Origin: a virus
Direction: 5' to 3' (one strand)
Virus record (IMG/VR): IMGVR_UViG_3300046491_000454
Span: 1 to 44,076 of that record
Length of the DNA: 44,076 nt
The position numbers and the translations under genes were made by a program. The notes beneath the pieces are model-generated. The model was not told where the DNA came from and did no database searches. It was given only the letters and a program-made list of their open reading frames with translations. The first letter of the stretch is position 1, and every line of letters starts with the position of its first letter. Below, in pieces: positions 5,093-41,150 of this stretch.

Positions 5093-5706
5093 TACAGGCC
5101 CAGGGCGGCGCGCTGGCCGGCGATGAAGGCGTCCCAGGCGCTGCGGGCGGCGTCCAGATCGTCGTGGGTGGCGGCGGCGCGCATGTCCCACTGGCTGTCG
5201 AAGCGCTGGTCGCGCATCGCCTTTTTGGCAGCGGCCAGCGCGTCGGCGCGGGCGAGGACCTGCTGCGCCGCCCAGGCGTTGGTTTGCACTTGCATGGTCG
5301 GGTTCTTTTGTGCGAATTTCGCGACCGACTCCGGCGCCGGCTCGGCGGAGCCGGATGCGGTAAAGGCGCGTGCATCCGCTTCCGCGTCCTTGTACTCCTC
5401 AGTGCGCCGGCCCACCGCATCCCACACCAGCGCGTCGATGTCGGCATAGGTGGCCGCGATGGCGGCAGCCCTGAGCGCGGACAGGTCGACCAGCGGCGCC
5501 ACGGCCGGCGCCAGCTCCACGGCGTCGCGGGCGGCGTTGGCGCGGTAGGCGGTCCAGTGCTCGGCCAGCGGCTCGGCCAGCACGATCAGGTGGCCCACGT
5601 GCGCCTCGGGCGGCACCTGGTTATCGAAAAACCCACCCAGCGCGCCATCGGGCTCGGTGAAAATCACGTAGGTAAGTGCCTGCGGTTTGATCAGTTCGTC
5701 GCTCAT
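5092..5706 (-). CDS. Phage protein, possible tail fibre assembly factor
   Basis: Encodes 204 residues, starting MSDELIKPQALTYVIF. It has an N-terminal beta-rich portion followed by long alanine-rich helices (ALAAAKKAMRDQRFDSQWD), and no membrane segment. Its stop overlaps the downstream start and its own start abuts the stop of the fibre-like gene upstream. This position, directly after the distal tail gene, is where fibre assembly chaperones sit in many phages. I see no decisive motif, so the role is a positional inference. Confidence 0.6.
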   Translation of the reverse strand: MSDELIKPQALTYVIFTEPDGALGGFFDNQVPPEAHVGHLIVLAEPLAEHWTAYRANAARDAVELAPAVAPLVDLSALRAAAIAATYADIDALVWDAVGRRTEEYKDAEADARAFTASGSAEPAPESVAKFAQKNPTMQVQTNAWAAQQVLARADALAAAKKAMRDQRFDSQWDMRAAATHDDLDAARSAWDAFIAGQRAALGL

Positions 5707-6701
5707 TACGCTACCTTTTCAAAAATGATTTCGGCGTAGACTTCGACCTGGCCGGTGGCGGCCGGCGATCCCAAGCTGTTGCCGGAGTTGGTGTTGTATT
5801 GACGCAGCTCGAACACCTTGGATGCGGCGATGGTGATCTCGCCAATCAGGTGCGACAGGGTCTGGATGCCGCTTGTGGTCGTGGCCGCCATCGACGTGCC
5901 GAGCGAGGCATACGCCGCATCGGTCACGTTGTAGAGCGCGGCTTGGTGCGCGCCGTTGCCGTTCGACGGGGCGTGGCCGCGGTAGCGGTAGGTGCCAGCC
6001 GGCAGCGTGACCTGGTTGCTGGCCAGCGACGCGCCGCTGATCGTGTTCTTCTTCGACGCGCCGAGCGCGCGGGTCTGCCAGCCGCTGGCGGCCACGCCGG
6101 CGCCCGTGCCGCTGGTTTTCTCGTCGCGCGCCCAAATGATCGGGTAGGTGTTGATCGGCCCGGTCAAACCGATGTCGCCCTTGTCGCCGGTGCGGGTAAA
6201 CCCGAGTAGCAAGGCTTCGCCAGCCGTCCAGGTCGGGTTGGTGGAGCTGATGAACTGCACCGTGAAGCTACGGTAAAACGTCTGGCTGGTATCCTCGCCT
6301 GTAATGCCGAGGACCAGATACTTGTTCTGATCCGTCTGGGAAGTCAGCTTGATCTGGCCCTTCACCGCGCTGGTCGACGTATTCATGCTGTCGAGGTATG
6401 CGGCGACCACCTTGCCCAGCTGGCTGGTGGTGCTGATGTAGACCGCAGTGACCAGGGCATGGGAAGAATTGTTCAGGCGGATTTCGCCGGCACCGGGGTC
6501 GCCGGCGGCCGTGCCGGTATCGAACGCGAACGGGATCGCGTAGGCGCCGCCCATCGCCAACGAGTTCAGGCCGGCCACCAGCGCGAGCAGCTCGTTGTAG
6601 AAGGTGTCGACCAGCCAGGCGATGAAGCCGTCCAGCAGGAGGTTGAAGGTAGCGCGCACGCCGCGCTGCGGCTTGCTAGGCGGTGGTGTCAATAGTGGCA
6701 T
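5706..6701 (-). CDS. Tail fibre-like protein
   Basis: Encodes 331 residues. The N terminus (FIAWLVDTFYNELLALVAGL) is a helical region suited to attachment. The middle includes a short collagen-like turn (TGDKGDIGLTGP, about residue 170). The C-terminal 130 residues are rich in Asn, Thr, Ser and Gly (TYRYRGHAPSNGNGAHQAAL; RQYNTNSGNSLGS) and look like a trimeric beta-sandwich receptor-binding head. It overlaps the end of the preceding gene by 26 bases. Likely role is host-surface contact. Confidence 0.75.
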   Translation of the reverse strand: MPLLTPPPSKPQRGVRATFNLLLDGFIAWLVDTFYNELLALVAGLNSLAMGGAYAIPFAFDTGTAAGDPGAGEIRLNNSSHALVTAVYISTTSQLGKVVAAYLDSMNTSTSAVKGQIKLTSQTDQNKYLVLGITGEDTSQTFYRSFTVQFISSTNPTWTAGEALLLGFTRTGDKGDIGLTGPINTYPIIWARDEKTSGTGAGVAASGWQTRALGASKKNTISGASLASNQVTLPAGTYRYRGHAPSNGNGAHQAALYNVTDAAYASLGTSMAATTTSGIQTLSHLIGEITIAASKVFELRQYNTNSGNSLGSPAATGQVEVYAEIIFEKVA

Positions 6702-29787: not shown

Positions 29788-32241
29788 TCACAGTTCCCCC
29801 TTGATTTCGCCGAGCGTGCGGAATTCCTCGCACTGCCTGCTCAGCGACTTCGGCTGGTCGCCCTCGGGCTGGGGCACGTGGAACACGGTGAGCAGCTTTT
29901 TGGAAGAAGCGCCGATGGCGACCCACTGCCGGTCCTTCTTCAGGCGCTGGGCGATCAGCTCGGGGAATTTGGCCAGCGACAGCGGCCGGAAGTTGTAGCG
30001 CGCGCAGAACCGCGAATACATCACGTACAGGTCGTTGGACAGGCACGAGCAGTACGGCACGCTCAACTCGCCGGCGGCCCAGGACAGGTAGAACGCCTCC
30101 CAGTCCGGGCGGCCGAAGTTGATCATGCGTTCCTTGGAGGCGGTCATCAGCGGCTTGGTGTGGGGGTCGAACTCGCCCAGCGGGTACTCGAGCAGGAACG
30201 CGTAGAAGGCTTCGCTCAGGCCGTGGCCGAGCGCGTCTTTGATGGCCAGGCGCAGGCCCTCGTCGAGCGGGGTGCTGGCCTCACCCACCAGGAAGCGGCG
30301 GTCGTTGGGCTCGATCGGCGCGGCCTGGAATTCGTTGGACAGCATCACCACGTTCATGTGGTTGGCTTCGGTGCGGTCGTCCTTGAATTTCTGGGTGACC
30401 GGCATGTCGCGGCCGGTGATCATGTGCTTGACCAGGCCGAAGTAGTTGTACTTGTCCTGGCGCGACAGCACCTCCTCGAACAAGACGAACAGCTTCTGGC
30501 TGCGCCAGTGGGTGTACTGGGTCTCGAGCTGGTGCTGGCCGCCGGTGGCGCCGTGGGCGCCGTAGATCGGCTTGACGATGCCCTCGAAGAACAGGCTCTT
30601 GCCGGTGCCCTGCTTTTCGCCGAAGAACAGCAGCGCGGTCTGCATCTTGGCGCCCGGGTGCTGCAGCGGGTAGGCCAGCCAGCACAGCACCCAGTGGAAG
30701 ACTTCGTCGCAGTTGGCTTCGCCGCTGCACAGGCTGTAGAGCAGCGCGAGCGCGAGCTGGGCCTTGGCCTCGTCCTTCTTCGGGGTCAGCGGGAAGCCTT
30801 CGAACATGTTGATGTGGGTGTCGAGGTCGACCTGCTGGGTGGGGTCGAACACCAGCTTGTCGAGGTCGATCTCGCGGTGCATCGGGTGGCCGATCCAGCG
30901 CGAGGCCAGGTCGTTGCCGCGCGCCAGGGCCATCGCATCGTAGGCGATCACGGTGCGCTTGTCGGCGTCCCACACGGTCTTGGTCCCGTACAGCAGGGTG
31001 TAGCGGTCGAGCATCATCACGATGTTGTCGGCCCCCGCCCCCCCTTCGTCGACGGCGACGCCGCGCACCATGCGCGGCAGGTTGCGCGGGCTGATGGTGC
31101 GGCGCTCGGCATGCTCGGACCAGGCGCGCGCCGCTTCCTTGCCGACCATGTCGACGAAGGCGGCGCGCTTCATCTTGAGTTTGTTGAGCGCATCCCAGAC
31201 GTCGGTCGAGCCCTGCACCAGGGCGCAGTGCGCGAGCGCACATTCGAGGGAGAAAATGCCGGTCATGACTGGCGGCTCCGTGTCGCTGGAGGGGGCCGGG
31301 GAACGGCTGCCCGCGTCGCCCGCCGCCGGTGTCGAAAGGGGCGCGGGGGAAACGGCGCCATCGCCCGCCGCTGCGGGCAGGCGCGGCGAGTGCGTGCGCG
31401 GTGGGCGCCAGCCGGCATCGACCGCCATCTTGTAGACCGTGGCCGCCGTGGTGCCGCTGCCGCCGAACGACTTCCAGTGCCCTTCGAGGTCCTTCACCCC
31501 GGCATACTTGGACGACTTGGACGACCACCAGTCCCAGACCGCCAACGCGCCTTCGCCGAGCGTTGCGTGGATCGCCATGCCGACCCGGATCCAGTTGTCG
31601 TACCCGCAATCGGCACTGATGCAGGCCAGGGCCGATTCCAGCTTGGAGCGCTCGTCGGTCGATTGGGGCATTGTAGGCGCAGGCCGCGCCACGTGCGCAC
31701 CCTTGGCCTGGTCGACCGTGGCGCGCAGGCGATTCAGGACCGTGGGTTCGATCGGCGCGATCGCGCGAGGGGCGCCGGGGAACGGCGCCGCCGTGAACGT
31801 GAAGAACTGGGCGCCGCAGAACACTTCGAGGCCGATGTCGTTCGACTTGAAGGTCTTGGTTTCGCCCGCGACGATGGTGTGCACGCCCTTGCGGGACGGC
31901 GAGTACTCGGTATAGGACGCGCAGGCCTCGATGATGGCCGCCGCGCGCGGCGCGACCACGCCATCGTCATCGATGCAGCCATCGATATCGATGCCGATCA
32001 ATCCATCGCCAGGCAGGAATGCGAAGCCGATGCCCGAATAACCCTGGCCGCAGCGCGCATGCGCCTCGGCCAGCGAGACGAGCTCGCCGCGGTCCTCGTC
32101 GCTGCCCTGCCTGCCGGTGCGGCGCTTGCCGGATACGTAGTACGGCATCTTGCGCGGCTTCTTCTCGCCCGGCTCGAAGCGCCACACCAGCCACTGGCGG
32201 CGCGCGGCCAGATCGTCGGGAATAACGCCGATGTCGATCAT
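29788..32241 (-). CDS. Primase-polymerase / D5-like helicase
   Basis: Encodes 817 residues from the ATG at 32241, overlapping the previous stop. N-terminal prim-pol features: RQWLVWRFEPGEKKPRKMPY, a DGLIGIDIDGCID catalytic acidic patch near residue 85, and SRKGVHTIVAGE. A PriCT-2-like linker (ACISADCGYDNWIRVGMAIH) occupies residues 205-290. The C-terminal half is a DUF5906/D5-type helicase with Walker A FFGEKQGTGKSLFFEG and the following HWRSQKLFVLFEEV acidic box. The protein would prime and unwind phage DNA at the origin. An iteron region directly follows its stop codon. Confidence 0.88.
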   Translation of the reverse strand: MIDIGVIPDDLAARRQWLVWRFEPGEKKPRKMPYYVSGKRRTGRQGSDEDRGELVSLAEAHARCGQGYSGIGFAFLPGDGLIGIDIDGCIDDDGVVAPRAAAIIEACASYTEYSPSRKGVHTIVAGETKTFKSNDIGLEVFCGAQFFTFTAAPFPGAPRAIAPIEPTVLNRLRATVDQAKGAHVARPAPTMPQSTDERSKLESALACISADCGYDNWIRVGMAIHATLGEGALAVWDWWSSKSSKYAGVKDLEGHWKSFGGSGTTAATVYKMAVDAGWRPPRTHSPRLPAAAGDGAVSPAPLSTPAAGDAGSRSPAPSSDTEPPVMTGIFSLECALAHCALVQGSTDVWDALNKLKMKRAAFVDMVGKEAARAWSEHAERRTISPRNLPRMVRGVAVDEGGAGADNIVMMLDRYTLLYGTKTVWDADKRTVIAYDAMALARGNDLASRWIGHPMHREIDLDKLVFDPTQQVDLDTHINMFEGFPLTPKKDEAKAQLALALLYSLCSGEANCDEVFHWVLCWLAYPLQHPGAKMQTALLFFGEKQGTGKSLFFEGIVKPIYGAHGATGGQHQLETQYTHWRSQKLFVLFEEVLSRQDKYNYFGLVKHMITGRDMPVTQKFKDDRTEANHMNVVMLSNEFQAAPIEPNDRRFLVGEASTPLDEGLRLAIKDALGHGLSEAFYAFLLEYPLGEFDPHTKPLMTASKERMINFGRPDWEAFYLSWAAGELSVPYCSCLSNDLYVMYSRFCARYNFRPLSLAKFPELIAQRLKKDRQWVAIGASSKKLLTVFHVPQPEGDQPKSLSRQCEEFRTLGEIKGEL

Positions 32242-32417
32242 TGGTCGACCTCGGACTGCAGCAGCTGCGCGAGCTGGCGCTCGTAGTGCGTCCGGATGTG
32301 GCGCTTTTCGGTGGCCGGGCGGATCCGTTCGACCGGGTCCGTGCACAAAGCATGACCTTGCTCAGTCCTGAACACTGGACCGGGTGCTACCTTTTGATCG
32401 ATGCTGGGGAAGTTCAT
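32238..32417 (-). CDS. Small hypothetical early protein
   Basis: Encodes 59 residues from the ATG at 32417. It ends with a TGA overlapping the primase ATG (ATGA), which implies translational coupling. The sequence has a conserved-looking RIRPATEKRHIRTHYERQLA block and ends LLQSEVDQ. No family recognised. The ribosome binding site upstream of this ATG is weak. Larger frames upstream on the same strand overlap the next gene and are less protein-like. Confidence 0.5.
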   Translation of the reverse strand: MNFPSIDQKVAPGPVFRTEQGHALCTDPVERIRPATEKRHIRTHYERQLAQLLQSEVDQ

Positions 32418-34267: not shown

Positions 34268-34296
34268 ATATTAGTCCGACTAATTTATTTAGTCAA
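34268..34296 (-). promoter_or_regulatory. Sigma70 promoter of the cro operon with two overlapping operators
   Basis: On the minus strand TTGACT (34296-34291), 17 bases, TAATAT (34273-34268). The -10 box is covered by the perfect palindrome TTAGTCCGACTAA (34271-34283) and the -35 box by a second copy (34296-34308, TTAGTCCGACTGT on the minus strand). Centre distance is 25 bases. Binding of a repressor dimer at either site would block polymerase. Confidence 0.82.
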
Positions 34297-34343
34297 CAGT
34301 CGGACTAATTGCAAATTATTAGCGTCGCTTATATTGTCCTGCC

Positions 34344-35135
34344 ATGCCCGCCAACCCTTTGACCCCCGAGCAGTTAGCCGACGCCGAGCGCCTGAAGGTG
34401 CTATTCGGCCATTGGAAGCAGCGCCGCAAAGACGATGGCCTCCCGGCGTCGCAAGAGGCTGCCAGTGAGATGCTTGGGTTCAATCAGAGCGCGATGAGTC
34501 AGTACCTCAACGGTAGAATCCCGCTCAACGTCGAGGCCGCAACCAAGTTCGCGACACTGATCGGCACACCGATTAGCGAATTCAGTCCGTCGCTGGCAAG
34601 CCAGGCGGCCCGTTACATCGCGGCCTCATCCGCTCCCAACCATGTCGGCGACAGTACGATCCCCTATCTCGCTCGGGTCAGCCGGGTGCAGGTCGGCGGG
34701 GAAGAGGACACCCTGCCAATCAAAATGGTGAACCTTCATCTACAGGCCGGATTCCCCAACTTCGACATCGACCAGGAGTTTGACGACGGCGGCGCAATCA
34801 ACATCCCGCGCAAGGTGGTCGAACAAAACGACTGGGTTCCACAGTGCCTGCTCGCGATCAAGGTGAAGGGCGAAAGCATGAAGCCGGTGCTGTCGGCCGG
34901 CGACACCGTCGTAATCAACATTGCTGACACGCGACCTGTCTCCGGTGAGATGTATGCGATTAACTGCGAAGGGACAGCGGTCATCAAACAGCTCGTTTAC
35001 GAGGCGAAGGCGTGGTGGATGTACTCGTTCAATCGATCGCCGGAATTTGGAAGGCGAATTTTCCGCAGCCCCGAATCGATAGTCGTCGGCCGAGTGGTGT
35101 ATCAGCCGGGGCGCATACTCCAAGGCCGGCTGTAG
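34344..35135 (+). CDS. CI-type phage repressor, S24/LexA-like
   Basis: Encodes 263 residues. N-terminal helix-turn-helix: SQEAASEMLGFNQSAMSQYL followed by NGRIPLNVEAATKFATLIG. The C-terminal S24 peptidase domain has the catalytic serine in KVKGESMKPVLSAGD and the lysine in GTAVIKQLVYE. An Ala-Gly bond in LHLQAGFP is a possible self-cleavage site after DNA damage. TATATT at 34330-34335 is a plausible -10, which would start transcription just before the ATG; no ribosome binding site is seen, so this mRNA may be leaderless too, like lambda cI. It should bind the operators on both sides of its transcription unit. Confidence 0.93.
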   Translation: MPANPLTPEQLADAERLKVLFGHWKQRRKDDGLPASQEAASEMLGFNQSAMSQYLNGRIPLNVEAATKFATLIGTPISEFSPSLASQAARYIAASSAPNHVGDSTIPYLARVSRVQVGGEEDTLPIKMVNLHLQAGFPNFDIDQEFDDGGAINIPRKVVEQNDWVPQCLLAIKVKGESMKPVLSAGDTVVINIADTRPVSGEMYAINCEGTAVIKQLVYEAKAWWMYSFNRSPEFGRRIFRSPESIVVGRVVYQPGRILQGRL

Positions 35136-35667: not shown

Positions 35668-35709
35668 ATTAGTCCGACTGTTGACTATTAAAATCAGTCG
35701 CACTAATAT
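35668..35709 (+). promoter_or_regulatory. Sigma70 promoter of the DGR-bearing early operon with two operators
   Basis: TTGACT at 35681-35686, a 17-base spacer and TAATAT at 35704-35709. Operator copies lie at 35669-35681 (TTAGTCCGACTGT) and 35694-35706 (TCAGTCGCACTAA), centre distance 25 bases. The segment ATTAGTCCGACTGTTGACTA (35668-35687) is an exact inverted match to 34290-34309 at the cro promoter. The arrangement is a mirror of the cro promoter, as lambda OL and OR are related. Confidence 0.85.
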
Positions 35710-36956: not shown

Positions 36957-37484
36957 ATGAGCACCCACGAACAGACTACGCCCGTCGCGCTGCACGGCCT
37001 GATCCGGCGCCTGCTCGACGATCACCAGCGGATCTTCCCGCATCAGGCGGAGCTGTGCCCGCTGTGCCAGGACACCGAGCGCACCCTCGACCTGCTGGCC
37101 GACGAACTGCCGGACGAGGAGTGCGGAATCTGCTGCGCGCCGGCCGGGCAGCCGCACGCCGATGCCTGCCCGGGCAAGGACGGCGACTGCCCCGGCTGCG
37201 CGGCCAAGCCTGGCGAGTCGCATGGCGCCTACTGCCCGGTCGCGGCCGCAGGTGGCGCGGCGACGGTGCAGCCTGCCCTGATGACGCGCACCGGCTATCG
37301 CTGCGCCGAATGCTGCGCGAAAGCCGGCCAGCCGCACGCCGATACCTGCCCCGAAGCCAGCACGCCTACGGAGCCGGACAAGGCACCGATCCCGCCCGGA
37401 ATCTCCGGATGCTACCTGCTCGCGGACGGCACCTACGGATCTTTCTACCCCGGGCCGCCCGGCGCGGACGGCAAGCACGATTAA
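36957..37484 (+). CDS. Cysteine-rich protein with three zinc-knuckle-like repeats
   Basis: Encodes 175 residues. Three units of the form C-x2-C-A-x2-G-x2-H-x4-C are visible: CGICCAPAGQPHADACP (about residue 55), CPGCAAKPGESHGAYCP (about 80) and CAECCAKAGQPHADTCP (about 115). A fourth cysteine pair (LCPLCQDTE) lies upstream, and a Gly/Tyr-rich tail (GCYLLADGTYGSFYPG) ends the protein. The Cys-Cys-His-Cys pattern suggests metal binding. It is directly upstream of the first DGR target gene. Not a known phage family to me. Confidence 0.7.
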   Translation: MSTHEQTTPVALHGLIRRLLDDHQRIFPHQAELCPLCQDTERTLDLLADELPDEECGICCAPAGQPHADACPGKDGDCPGCAAKPGESHGAYCPVAAAGGAATVQPALMTRTGYRCAECCAKAGQPHADTCPEASTPTEPDKAPIPPGISGCYLLADGTYGSFYPGPPGADGKHD

Positions 37485-37527: not shown

Positions 37528-38142
37528 ATGGATCTCCAAGAGAATACCTCAGTCGTTCCCGCCATACCGGGAACGCCCTTCGGCGGCGGCTTTTACGCCG
37601 GCCGCATCCTGATCGCCGGTGTGCTGCATGCACTGATCGTCGCACCGAAGGCCGAGGGCGAGCGCGAGGACATCGCCTGGCTCGCCTCCGAGCAGCGCGT
37701 TCCCGGCGCCGACAGCTATTGCGACGGCATGCAGAACACGGTCGCGATGGCCGAAGCCGGCAGCGAGCTGGCGCAGTGGGCGCGCGGCCTGCAGATCAAC
37801 GGCCACACCGACTGGCACATCCCGAGCCAGGACGAGCTCGAAATCCTGTACCGCAACCTGAAGCCGACTACTCGGAAGAACTACCTCTACGCCCGCAGCG
37901 GCGTGAACGCCTCGGCCGTGCCGCCGACCCTCGCCTATAGTGCCGACGCGCCGGCGCAGACAGGCGCGCATGACTTCGCCCAGGGCGGCGAACAGGCCTT
38001 CGTGGACGAGTGGTACTGGTCGAGCACGCAGCACGCTGCCTACGACGACTGTGCCTGGGGTCAGAATTTCCTCAACGGCACCCAGACCAGCACCAAGTCG
38101 GCCAGCTTCCGCGCTCGCGCGGTCCGCAGATTCGCAATTTAA
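37528..38142 (+). CDS. DGR target protein 1 (C-type-lectin-like, DUF1566 style)
   Basis: Encodes 204 residues. The N-terminal region (GGGFYAGRILIAGVLHALIV) is followed by a DUF1566/Lcl-like body (HTDWHIPSQDELEILYRNLK; FVDEWYWSSTQHAA) and ends with the variable region VR1, residues 167-201, closing SASFRARAVRRFAI. The C-type lectin fold displays such variable residues on a binding face. VR1 differs from the template at 10 sites, all template adenines. No signal peptide is seen, so display in the virion, or use inside the host, remains to be shown. Followed by target 2 after 28 bases. Confidence 0.92.
   Translation: MDLQENTSVVPAIPGTPFGGGFYAGRILIAGVLHALIVAPKAEGEREDIAWLASEQRVPGADSYCDGMQNTVAMAEAGSELAQWARGLQINGHTDWHIPSQDELEILYRNLKPTTRKNYLYARSGVNASAVPPTLAYSADAPAQTGAHDFAQGGEQAFVDEWYWSSTQHAAYDDCAWGQNFLNGTQTSTKSASFRARAVRRFAI
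38025..38132 (+). repeat. DGR variable repeat 1 (VR1)
   Basis: A 108-base copy of the template repeat at the end of target gene 1. Ten differences from the template, all at template adenines: three A to G, five A to C... by codon these are AAC to TAC, TAT to TGT, AAT to GGT, AAC to CTC, AAC to ACC (three times) and AAC to AGC, giving 4 A to G, 4 A to C and 2 A to T. The last 35 bases (from AAGTCGGCC to GCAGATT) are identical to TR and contain the GC-rich stretch expected of the initiation of mutagenic homology (IMH). Confidence 0.95.
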
Positions 38143-38170
38143 CCCTTCATCCATTTCAGGGTAAAAGACC

Positions 38171-38596
38171 ATGAAGAAAGCACAAGAACTGCAACAGGCC
38201 GGCGGCGCCGTCGCGACAACTGCAGCGGCGAGCAAGGCCCAACGGATCGCAGAGAACCTCAAGCCGGGCGAGCTGTACGCCGGCCTGATCCTCGGCCTGG
38301 ACGGGAAGCCCGACCACCACCTCATCCTTCTTCCCGGCGAAGCCGAGAAGGTCACGTGGGACCAGGCGAAGAAATTCGCGATCGACGCCGGTGGCGAGCT
38401 GCCCACGCGCCGGGAACAGTCCCTGTTGTTCGCGAACTTGCAGCGCGAGTTCAAACAGAACTGGTATTGGTCGAGCGAGCAGCACGCTGCCAACGACGAC
38501 TATGCCTGGTTTCAGGTTTTCAACTACGGCTACCAGCTCAACAGCAAGTCGGCCAGCTTCCGCGCTCGCGCGGTCCGCAGATTAACCATTCAGTAA
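38171..38596 (+). CDS. DGR target protein 2 (C-type-lectin-like)
   Basis: Encodes 141 residues. It is a shorter paralogue of target 1: an N-terminal segment with ELYAGLILGLDGKPDHHLIL, a helix VTWDQAKKFAIDAGGELPTR, then NWYWSSEQHAA and VR2 (residues 104-138), closing SASFRARAVRRLTIQ. The variable residues include F, V, Y, Y, L and S in place of template asparagines. Nine base differences from TR, all at adenines. It shares the VR-coding part with target 1, which makes it a second receiver of the same template. Confidence 0.92.
   Translation: MKKAQELQQAGGAVATTAAASKAQRIAENLKPGELYAGLILGLDGKPDHHLILLPGEAEKVTWDQAKKFAIDAGGELPTRREQSLLFANLQREFKQNWYWSSEQHAANDDYAWFQVFNYGYQLNSKSASFRARAVRRLTIQ
38479..38584 (+). 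repeat. DGR variable repeat 2 (VR2)
   Basis: A 106-base copy of the template at the end of target gene 2. Nine differences from TR, every one at a template adenine: AAT to TTT, AAT to GTT, AAC to TAC (twice), AAC to CTC and AAC to AGC. The GC-rich 3' end is identical to TR through 38584. Just left of 38479 the match ends with a non-adenine mismatch, which marks the 5' limit of this repeat. Confidence 0.95.
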
Positions 38597-38615
38597 TTTA
38601 GCCCTTTTCATCAGC

Positions 38616-38969
38616 ATGGCACTCCACACCCAACTGCCGATTTACAAGGCCGCCTACGACCTCCTCGACGTCGTCACGGACCTCGCCAAGAACATGCCTC
38701 GGGACTTCAAGGCATCGATTGGCGGGAAGCTCCGCGACGAGGTGGTCGCCGTGACGATCTTGATCTTCCGCGCCAACACGGCGCGGGAGAAGGCGCCGCA
38801 CCTGCAGGGGCTCACCGAGCGCCTGCAGGTGGCCGAACTGCTGCTGCGACTCTCGCGCGACAAGCGTCTGATCGCGGTCAAGCAGTACGCGCGCGCCGTC
38901 GAGCTGACCACCAGCATCGGCAAGCAGGCCAGTGGATGGCGCCGTTCCGCAATGTCGCCCGCTTCGTGA
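38616..38969 (+). CDS. avd: DGR accessory variability determinant (Avd)
   Basis: Encodes 117 residues, all helical: LPIYKAAYDLLDVVTDLAKN, then FKASIGGKLRDEVVAVTILI, then LTERLQVAELLLRLSRDKRL and VKQYARAVELTTSIGKQ. This is the four-helix bundle of Avd proteins (also annotated as S23 ribosomal-intervening-sequence-like proteins). Avd is a basic pentamer that binds the reverse transcriptase and the template RNA and is needed for mutagenic retrohoming in the Bordetella phage system. Placement between targets and TR is standard. Lys/Arg richness agrees with RNA binding. Confidence 0.93.
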   Translation: MALHTQLPIYKAAYDLLDVVTDLAKNMPRDFKASIGGKLRDEVVAVTILIFRANTAREKAPHLQGLTERLQVAELLLRLSRDKRLIAVKQYARAVELTTSIGKQASGWRRSAMSPAS

Positions 38970-39089
38970 TGGTCAAGGCCACCATGACTGTGCGAACTTT
39001 TAATCTGGTCGTGCCGCTGGCTCACGAGGCCACCGCCATGCGCACCGCAGATACCGCCCGACATAGTTCAGGCAGGTCTGGCGCAGTTT

Positions 39090-39123
39090 CCCCGCTGATC
39101 GGCCGCTGCGGCCTTCGGCGGGG
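39090..39123 (+). other. Strong hairpin immediately 5' of the template repeat
   Basis: Nested stem: CCCCGC (39090-39095) pairs with GCGGGG (39118-39123), and GGCCGC (39101-39106) pairs with GCGGCC (39108-39113) around a single T. It lies 20 bases upstream of TR in the non-coding gap after avd. The structure could be part of the template RNA and a binding or priming element. A terminator is unlikely because no T run follows. Confidence 0.6.
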
Positions 39124-39143
39124 CGATGTAGATAGCACGAATT

Positions 39144-39251
39144 CACGCAGCACGCTGCCAACGACGACTATGCCTGGAATCAGAATTTCAACAACGGCAA
39201 CCAGAACAACAACAAGTCGGCCAGCTTCCGCGCTCGCGCGGTCCGCAGATT
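39144..39251 (+). repeat. DGR template repeat (TR)
   Basis: A 108-base non-coding template, 16 bases before the reverse transcriptase ATG. Read in the target frame it carries nine asparagine codons (AAC or AAT), the typical adenine-rich design that gives wide amino-acid choice and avoids stop codons. VR1 and VR2 are copies in which only adenines of this sequence have changed. The GC-rich end (TTCCGCGCTCGCGCGGTC) is shared unchanged with both VRs. Confidence 0.95.
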
Positions 39252-39266
39252 ATCCCGGTCGCCACC

Positions 39267-40387
39267 ATGCTGATTTTTCGTTCGAGGAGCTGGTGCAAGC
39301 CTACCTCGACTGCCGCAAGACCAAGCGCAACTCGGCCAGCGCCGCCGCGTTCGAGCAGGACCAGGAGCGCAACCTGGCGCGCCTGCGCGACGAGCTGCTC
39401 GACGGCAGCTACCGGCCGGGCCGGTCGATCTGCTTCATCGTCACGCGCCCAAGGCCGCGCGAGGTGTGGGCGGCCGACTTCCGCGACCGGATCGTGCACC
39501 ACCTGCTGTACAACCGCATCGCGCCGCGCTTTTACCGTTCGTTCATCAGCGACACCTGCGCCTGCATCCCGGGCCGCGGCACGCTGTACGCGGCACAGCG
39601 CCTCGAGGCGAAGATCCGCAGCGCGTCCCAGAACTGGAGCCGGCCGCTGTGGTACCTGAAGTGCGACCTGGCCAACTTCTTCGTCGCGATCGACAAACAC
39701 GTGCTGTGGCGCCAGATCGCCGCGCGCGTCAACGAGCCGTGGTGGCTGGCCCTGGCCGAGACGATCCTGTTCCACGACCCGCGCCAGGACTATGAGCTGC
39801 GCGGCGACCCGCGACTGATTGACCTGGTGCCGCCGCACAAACGCCTGCTTGGCCAGCCCGACCACCTCGGCCTGCCGATCGGGAACCTGTCGAGCCAGTT
39901 CTTCGCCAACATCTACCTCGACGCGCTCGACCAGCACGCGAAGCACCAGGTGCGCGCCCGCCATTACGTGCGCTACGTCGACGACTTCATCCTCCTCCAC
40001 GAATCGCCCCAGTGGCTGAACGGTGCGCTGGCCAGCATCGATGCATTCCTGCCGGCGACGCTCGGCGCCCGCCTGAACCCGACCAAGACCATCCTGCAGC
40101 CGGTGGCGCGCGGCGTCGACTTCGTCGGCCACGTGATCAAGCCGTGGCACACGCGCGCCCGTCGGCGCACCGTTGATCAGGCGATTAGCCGGCTGCGCAC
40201 GATGGACGCGGACGATGTCTTCGCCGCGGCAAACAGCTACTTCGGGCTGCTGCGCCAGTCGGACAGCAGCCATACCGATCGGGCCCGGGTAGCGCGGGCG
40301 GTGCTCAGGCGCGGTCATGCGGTGAACCGTACTTTCACGAAGACCTATAGAAAACAGCACGAACGCGAGATGGCGCGCGCGGCATAA
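39267..40387 (+). CDS. DGR reverse transcriptase (start region frameshifted)
   Basis: About 372 residues in the main frame. DGR-class features: SFEELVQAYLDCRKTKRN at the N terminus, VWAADFRDRIVHHLLYNRI, WYLKCDLANFFVAIDKHVLW, the DGR-specific IGNLSSQ motif (39878-39898, in place of QGxxxSP), the catalytic YVDD box (39974-39985) and PVARGVDFVGHVIKPWHTRA. The enzyme copies TR RNA with adenine errors. The natural ATG at 39267 is in another frame; a -1 shift in the five-T run (39274-39278) joins it to the main frame as MLIFSFEELV. Without this, GTG at 39293 or a read-through from upstream must serve. Confidence 0.92.
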
Positions 40388-40427: not shown

Positions 40428-41150
40428 ATGAAGAAGATTGTTCTGAACCTCCGGCTGCTGCTCGCCTTCGTCCTTAGCCCGTTCACCGACCGTGCCGGCC
40501 ACCAGCCGCCAAACTTCGCCAACATCAAGGCGCTGCTGCTGCACCTGTGCGACTACGACGACGTCAAGTGCACGTGGGTGATGCGCTGGCTGGCCTACCC
40601 GCTGCGCAACCCGGGCGCGAAGATGGACATCGGCCTGGTGGTCAACGGCGAGGAAGGTACCGGCAAGAACATGTTTTTCGAGCAGGTGGTGGCGCGCCTG
40701 TACAACGACGACAGCGTGCGCCACCTGGATGCGGCGCGGTTGCACGCGACGCTACAGCGGTGGGCCGTGGGCGCGCGTTTGGCGATGGTCGATGGCACGT
40801 TCTCGAAGAAGAACGCGGCGCGCCTGAAGGAGCTGATCACGGCGGCTGCGCTACACGTGGCAGGCCGCTTCGAGCAGGGTCAGACGCGCAAGAACCGGAT
40901 CAACTTCGTGTTCCTGTCGACCTCGTCCGAGTTCCTGCCGGTGCTCGAATCGGACCGCCGTCTGTTCGTGCTCGAGGTGGGCCCACGCCAGACGCGCACG
41001 TTCTACCGCGCGGTGTCGCACGAGATCGCGAACGGCGGCGTCGAAGCCTTCCGCGAGTACCTGATGCGCGGCTTGGACATGAGTGGCTTTAACGAGCACA
41101 CCAGGCCGCCAGCCGATGCCGCACAGCGTGCGCTGCGCGAGGTCGCGTAG
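40428..41150 (+). CDS. DUF5906-like helicase domain protein, truncated primase paralogue
   Basis: Encodes 240 residues. Clearly related to the helicase part of the primase at 29788-32241: both share WLAYPL-x-x-PGAKM and a P-loop region, here NGEEGTGKNMFFEQVVARLY. The Walker A motif ends GKN instead of GKS or GKT. The prim-pol domain is absent. A ring ATPase without the usual hydroxyl residue may be inactive or regulatory. It begins 40 bases after the reverse transcriptase and belongs to the same operon. Confidence 0.8.
   Translation: MKKIVLNLRLLLAFVLSPFTDRAGHQPPNFANIKALLLHLCDYDDVKCTWVMRWLAYPLRNPGAKMDIGLVVNGEEGTGKNMFFEQVVARLYNDDSVRHLDAARLHATLQRWAVGARLAMVDGTFSKKNAARLKELITAAALHVAGRFEQGQTRKNRINFVFLSTSSEFLPVLESDRRLFVLEVGPRQTRTFYRAVSHEIANGGVEAFREYLMRGLDMSGFNEHTRPPADAAQRALREVA

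Follow-up and report, generated by a model that had tools for sequence, protein, structure and literature searches.

An intact diversity-generating retroelement with two lectin-fold targets among the early genes of a temperate lambda-headed phage

The segment 37528–40387 of the virus DNA analyzed here is an intact diversity-generating retroelement (DGR), in which every DGR feature that could be tested is present. The window, a whole virus record of 44,076 bases, carries the cassette on the plus strand in the order target 1 (37528–38142, 204 aa), target 2 (38171–38596, 141 aa), avd, the accessory variability determinant (38616–38969, 117 aa), the template repeat (TR, 39144–39252), and the reverse transcriptase (RT), whose shortest version beginning at a conventional start codon spans 39170–40387 (405 aa). 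A first-pass annotation had proposed a complete DGR with its genes in this order on one strand, a DGR-class RT, an Avd protein, and C-type-lectin-like targets, and each of these assignments is upheld by the evidence given below: RT, Avd, TR, two variable repeats (VRs), and targets of the C-type-lectin fold are all present. Cassettes of this type are widespread and have been described before. We regard it as very likely that the element is an Avd/RT-15-RNA-type DGR, complete, of a temperate lambda-headed siphophage, with early stand-alone targets and an RT that starts within or upstream of TR. The sequence suggests that the complete cassette is probably working and that it would rewrite two small lectin-like proteins at their tips.

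Composition of the cassette and the TR/VR pattern

In terms of its enzymes, the cassette encodes an RT that matches phrog_1423 (E = 5.5e-121) and Pfam RVT_1 (E = 1.7e-14) and in which the motifs IGNLSSQ and YVDD are intact. The nearest solved structure is 8ub7 (E = 2.8e-37), which we take to be the DGR RT of phage BPP-1 (bRT), and the next structure matches are group II intron RTs at 1e-8 or weaker. The Avd protein matches Pfam bAvd with E = 6.6e-12, exceeding the curated cut-off, and phrog_3206 (“Avd protein of DGR”) with E = 4.7e-33; a comparison of its sequence with solved structures gave no useful match.

The repeats were located by an exhaustive diagonal scan of both strands of the whole window, with mismatches tolerated at TR adenines. 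VR1 (38025–38132, plus strand) lies at the C-terminus of target 1 and differs from TR at 10 positions, and VR2 (38479–38584, plus strand) lies at the C-terminus of target 2 and differs at nine; the scan found no further VR or TR within the window on either strand. All 19 of the 19 differences face TR adenines, and the number of non-adenine mismatches is zero (chance P = 1.1e-6 for VR1 and 6.1e-6 for VR2, if mismatches are assumed to be randomly placed over the repeat). The TR adenines sit mostly in AAY codons, and the TR-encoded string NDDYAWNQNFNNGNQNNNK is altered to YDDCAWGQNFLNGTQTSTK in target 1 and to NDDYAWFQVFNYGYQLNSK in target 2. The 3′ part of TR is poor in adenine and invariant, its last ~35 bases being the same in TR, VR1, and VR2, and this block constitutes a putative, IMH-like element.

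Target proteins and their early-gene setting

Target 1 is a single-domain protein of the Lcl_C/C-type-lectin fold. Its match to Pfam Lcl_C is significant (E = 9.5e-12), and target 2 matches the same family with E = 4.5e-5, under the Pfam curated cut-off. AlphaFold models built from alignments of relatives reached pLDDT values of 93.9 for target 1 and 91.2 for target 2, and for both the top Foldseek match is the C-terminal domain of Legionella Lcl, 8q4e (E = 5.4e-4 and 4.5e-4, respectively). Target 2 also matches intimin 1f00 (E = 2.7e-3) and many C-type lectins. Inspection of target 1 by eye revealed no obvious signal peptide, and its sequence gave no useful match to solved structures. Targets of the Lcl_C/DUF1566 type and DGRs with multiple targets have been described previously (PMC10743442, PMC6642488). 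Directly upstream of target 1, an open reading frame at 36957–37484 (plus strand) encodes a 175-aa protein with repeated Cys-rich CCxxxGQPHAxxC-like motifs, for which no family match was found.

The phage has a long tape measure and encodes a lambda-family portal, a gpA terminase, and capsid E, in agreement with the lambda-type head initially proposed. The description of the DNA as a temperate prophage is half sustained: an integrase, a CI-like repressor, and operators support the temperate lifestyle, but the window makes up an entire virus record with no host flank identified. A search for terminal direct repeats, as expected of att sites or circular ends, found no common word of at least 12 bases between the terminal 2.5 kb, and the structural region has no near DNA match among phage records.

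The CI-like repressor (34344–35135, plus strand; HTH plus S24 peptidase) has a promoter match on either side; the two are divergent, share their hexamers (TTGACT-17-TAATAT), and are sigma-70 promoters predicted as consensus matches. The PL-like member of this pair, at 35681–35709 on the plus strand, faces the cassette operon and is flanked by two operator-like palindromes (35668–35707), and two mirror palindromes (34270–34309) surround the divergent promoter. The four operator-like sites have the palindrome sequence ATTAGTCNGACTAAT, which matches the window four times, always around the repressor, against zero matches expected in the window. The cassette thus lies downstream of an operator-flanked promoter, which bears out its proposed position in an early operon. 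Directly downstream of the RT, the reading frame 40428–41150 (plus strand) encodes a 240-aa protein that matches only the helicase part of phage primase-helicases (VapE-like/DUF5906). The minus strand carries, at 29788–32346, the gene of a full-length primase-helicase (852 aa) from the same family group, and the shorter protein is possibly a paralogue or a replication-interference factor.

Contrary to what had been supposed, neither the two targets nor the early position is unusual. We surveyed 160 related loci, 80 from bacterial genomes and 80 from viral contigs, in which gene order and spacing are conserved. Two VRs were detected in 97 loci, three or more in 41, one in 15, and none in seven, counts that include some truncated loci and a few VRs scored as two pieces. 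With at least two VRs in 138 of the 160 loci, two-target cassettes are ordinary in this RT clade. As for position, Burkholderia phage Magia (MT701587) is annotated with its cassette among the early genes, between repressor and integrase as in the window, and the setting in the Pseudomonas phage Cruim01 (PP179333) is similar. Magia shares the order of lectin-fold target, Avd, and RT (RT 66.6% identical) and has a second small gene, annotated as hypothetical, at the position of target 2; upstream of its cassette, and in the same orientation, lie RecT and an ATPase gene. Magia also carries an additional lectin-fold target near the repressor. The window differs in having two VRs only, and Magia is of a different phage type, as it encodes baseplate proteins. 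Cruim01 has an RT 69% identical to that of the window, an RT-15 RNA annotated just upstream of the RT, and an upstream target-1 homologue, although this homologue is only about 44% identical and the host genus is different.

The genomic setting bears on where the two targets act. They might be virion receptor-binding or tail-tip proteins, like Mtd of BPP-1, that tune host range from an unusual genome position. The targets of phage DGRs in other clades are mostly tail proteins (PMC8144416), lectin folds suit receptor binding, the targets of Magia are annotated merely as lectin-fold, and a virion protein might in principle also be made from an early gene. We nevertheless consider this interpretation rather unlikely. 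The operon that holds the targets follows the repressor region and is encoded on the other strand from the tail genes, and the tail-fibre gene (5706–6701), about 31 kb away on the tail-gene strand, carries no VR. Across the clade the targets are small, mostly 100–270 aa, and mostly single-domain. The products of the large open reading frames flanking the cassettes of relatives include an exonuclease, RecT, a repressor, and a polymerase processivity factor, as well as ParB-like proteins, methyltransferases, and PAPS reductases; a search of 20 such frames gave no match to a tail or structural family, several of which had no match or belong to unknown families. The better supported reading, to which we give reasonable though not high confidence, is that the targets are early, stand-alone binding proteins. 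They would thus be early-gene products that are not tail fibres and that presumably reside inside the cell.

The RNA upstream of TR and the start of the RT

The interval separating avd from TR is occupied by the structured RT-15 RNA (Rfam RF03018; 38953–39147, plus strand), which overlaps the 3′ end of avd and the first bases of TR. The match covers the full covariance model and scores 179.2 bits, the gathering score being 82, and nothing sets the window RNA apart from the Rfam family. The RNA was found in 15 of the 15 relatives scanned, its 3′ end lying no more than a few bases from the start of TR; this coincidence across relatives is added by the present analysis. Single-sequence folding of the region was no more stable than that of shuffled sequences (z = −0.26), and the case for the RT-15 structure therefore rests on the Rfam covariance model. 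Among the papers searched, none dealt with the RT-15 RNA or phage Magia.

The cassette resembles the Mtd/Avd/Brt system of BPP-1 in its Avd–TR–RT order, in mutagenesis at adenines, in the C-type-lectin variable domain, and in the homology of the RTs, and differs from it in having two targets where BPP-1 has one of tail-fibre type. In BPP-1, a structured RNA located 3′ of TR, between TR and brt, recruits the RT–Avd complex (PMC12875486). In contrast, the structured RNA of the window lies 5′ of TR, and the RT frame extends into TR. The long structured spacer of the BPP-1 type is absent, as only about 14 nt separate the end of TR from the start of RT homology. A BPP-1-like RNA 3′ of TR was considered and is unsupported: no excess fold stability was detected there (z = 0.87), and codon conservation beyond TR showed no clear excess. 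The RT-15 RNA may instead take over the scaffold role.

The RT was expected to follow TR. Although the order is as proposed, the coding sequence is not simply downstream of the repeat. The open frame starts at ATG 38936 and homology begins at about 39266, but the RT frame contains no ATG, GTG, or TTG from the end of TR up to the point where homology starts, and the closest in-frame start codon is ATG 39170, within TR. The ATG at 39267 is ruled out as a start, being in the wrong frame. For the 152 relatives whose TR is clear, the nearest canonical RT start lies within TR in 118, downstream in 19, and upstream in 15. The distance from a 3′ motif of TR to a fixed RT codon takes nine spacer lengths, and these keep the same phase in 151 of the 152 loci. 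Such phase-respecting indels indicate that the TR/RT junction is translated in the RT frame, and hence that RT translation most likely begins within TR (at ATG 39170 in the window) or at a site preceding it. The start codon is not fixed across the clade, as the nearest canonical start is found only upstream of TR in 15 of the 152 loci and between TR and RT in 19. In Magia the RT is annotated from a start upstream of the homology region. With such a start, the 3′ end of TR would double as RT coding sequence.

These features can be combined into the tentative, and on balance doubtful, proposal that RT-15-type phage DGRs form a mechanistic variant, with a 5′ scaffold RNA in a retron-like topology, an RT start in TR, and early intracellular binders. 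If this were true, the binders might be aimed at host defence or at competing phages, for instance, and would not be receptor-binding tail proteins.

Activity, mechanism, and significance

Natural evidence of mutagenic retrohoming in this clade is provided by two phage contigs from different metagenomes, L094 (1–10214) and L095 (1–8717), whose RTs are 85% identical to that of the window. The RT, TR, and flanks of the pair are identical, and the only differences across the roughly 7.4 kb that precede the divergence of one contig end are 14 substitutions, every one of which falls in a single VR out of three and at a TR adenine. In a second pair, L153 and L155, a single VR position differs, and it is again a TR adenine; pairs of relatives that represent one isolate in two collections are uninformative on activity. 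No near-identical copies of the phage itself were found for a comparison of VRs, the closest RT being 92% identical. The window's own copy is probably active.

The lack of a canonical RT start codon downstream of TR could be taken as a sign that the DGR has decayed and that its VRs record past diversification. We consider this improbable, as the absent downstream start is a feature of the clade, all frames are open, the RT motifs are intact, neither VR has a non-adenine mismatch to TR, and relatives are active in nature. That the element is a retroelement of another class (a retron, group II intron, or Abi/UG RT) lying by coincidence beside duplicated genes can be dismissed, since the RT domain alone matches group II intron RTs weakly, with E-values about 29 orders of magnitude poorer than that of its match to the BPP-1 DGR RT, an Avd gene is also present, and the adenine-only TR/VR pattern refutes it.

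For a working DGR, the following sequence of events can be envisaged. The RT–Avd complex would copy the TR portion of an RNA whose 5′ end is the RT-15 structure, misincorporating opposite TR adenines, and the mutated cDNA, directed by the invariant 3′ block, would then take the place of the VR with which one or the other target gene ends. A single event could change as many as about ten residues on the surface of a small protein with a C-type-lectin fold. Because the operon lies under repressor-type operators, mutation and target expression would be expected during early lytic growth.

The clade to which the cassette belongs, found in phages of Burkholderiales and Pseudomonas, is large, apparently active, and little studied. 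It is of interest for its presumed 5′ scaffold RNA, for the overlap of TR with the RT reading frame, and for hypervariable early proteins. The overlap of TR and RT, together with the 5′ RNA, offers a simple test of the generality of the BPP-1 priming model. In these phages, hypermutation is placed among early genes and on proteins unlike tail fibres; if the targets act inside the cell, the phages would be evolving binders against something other than receptors.
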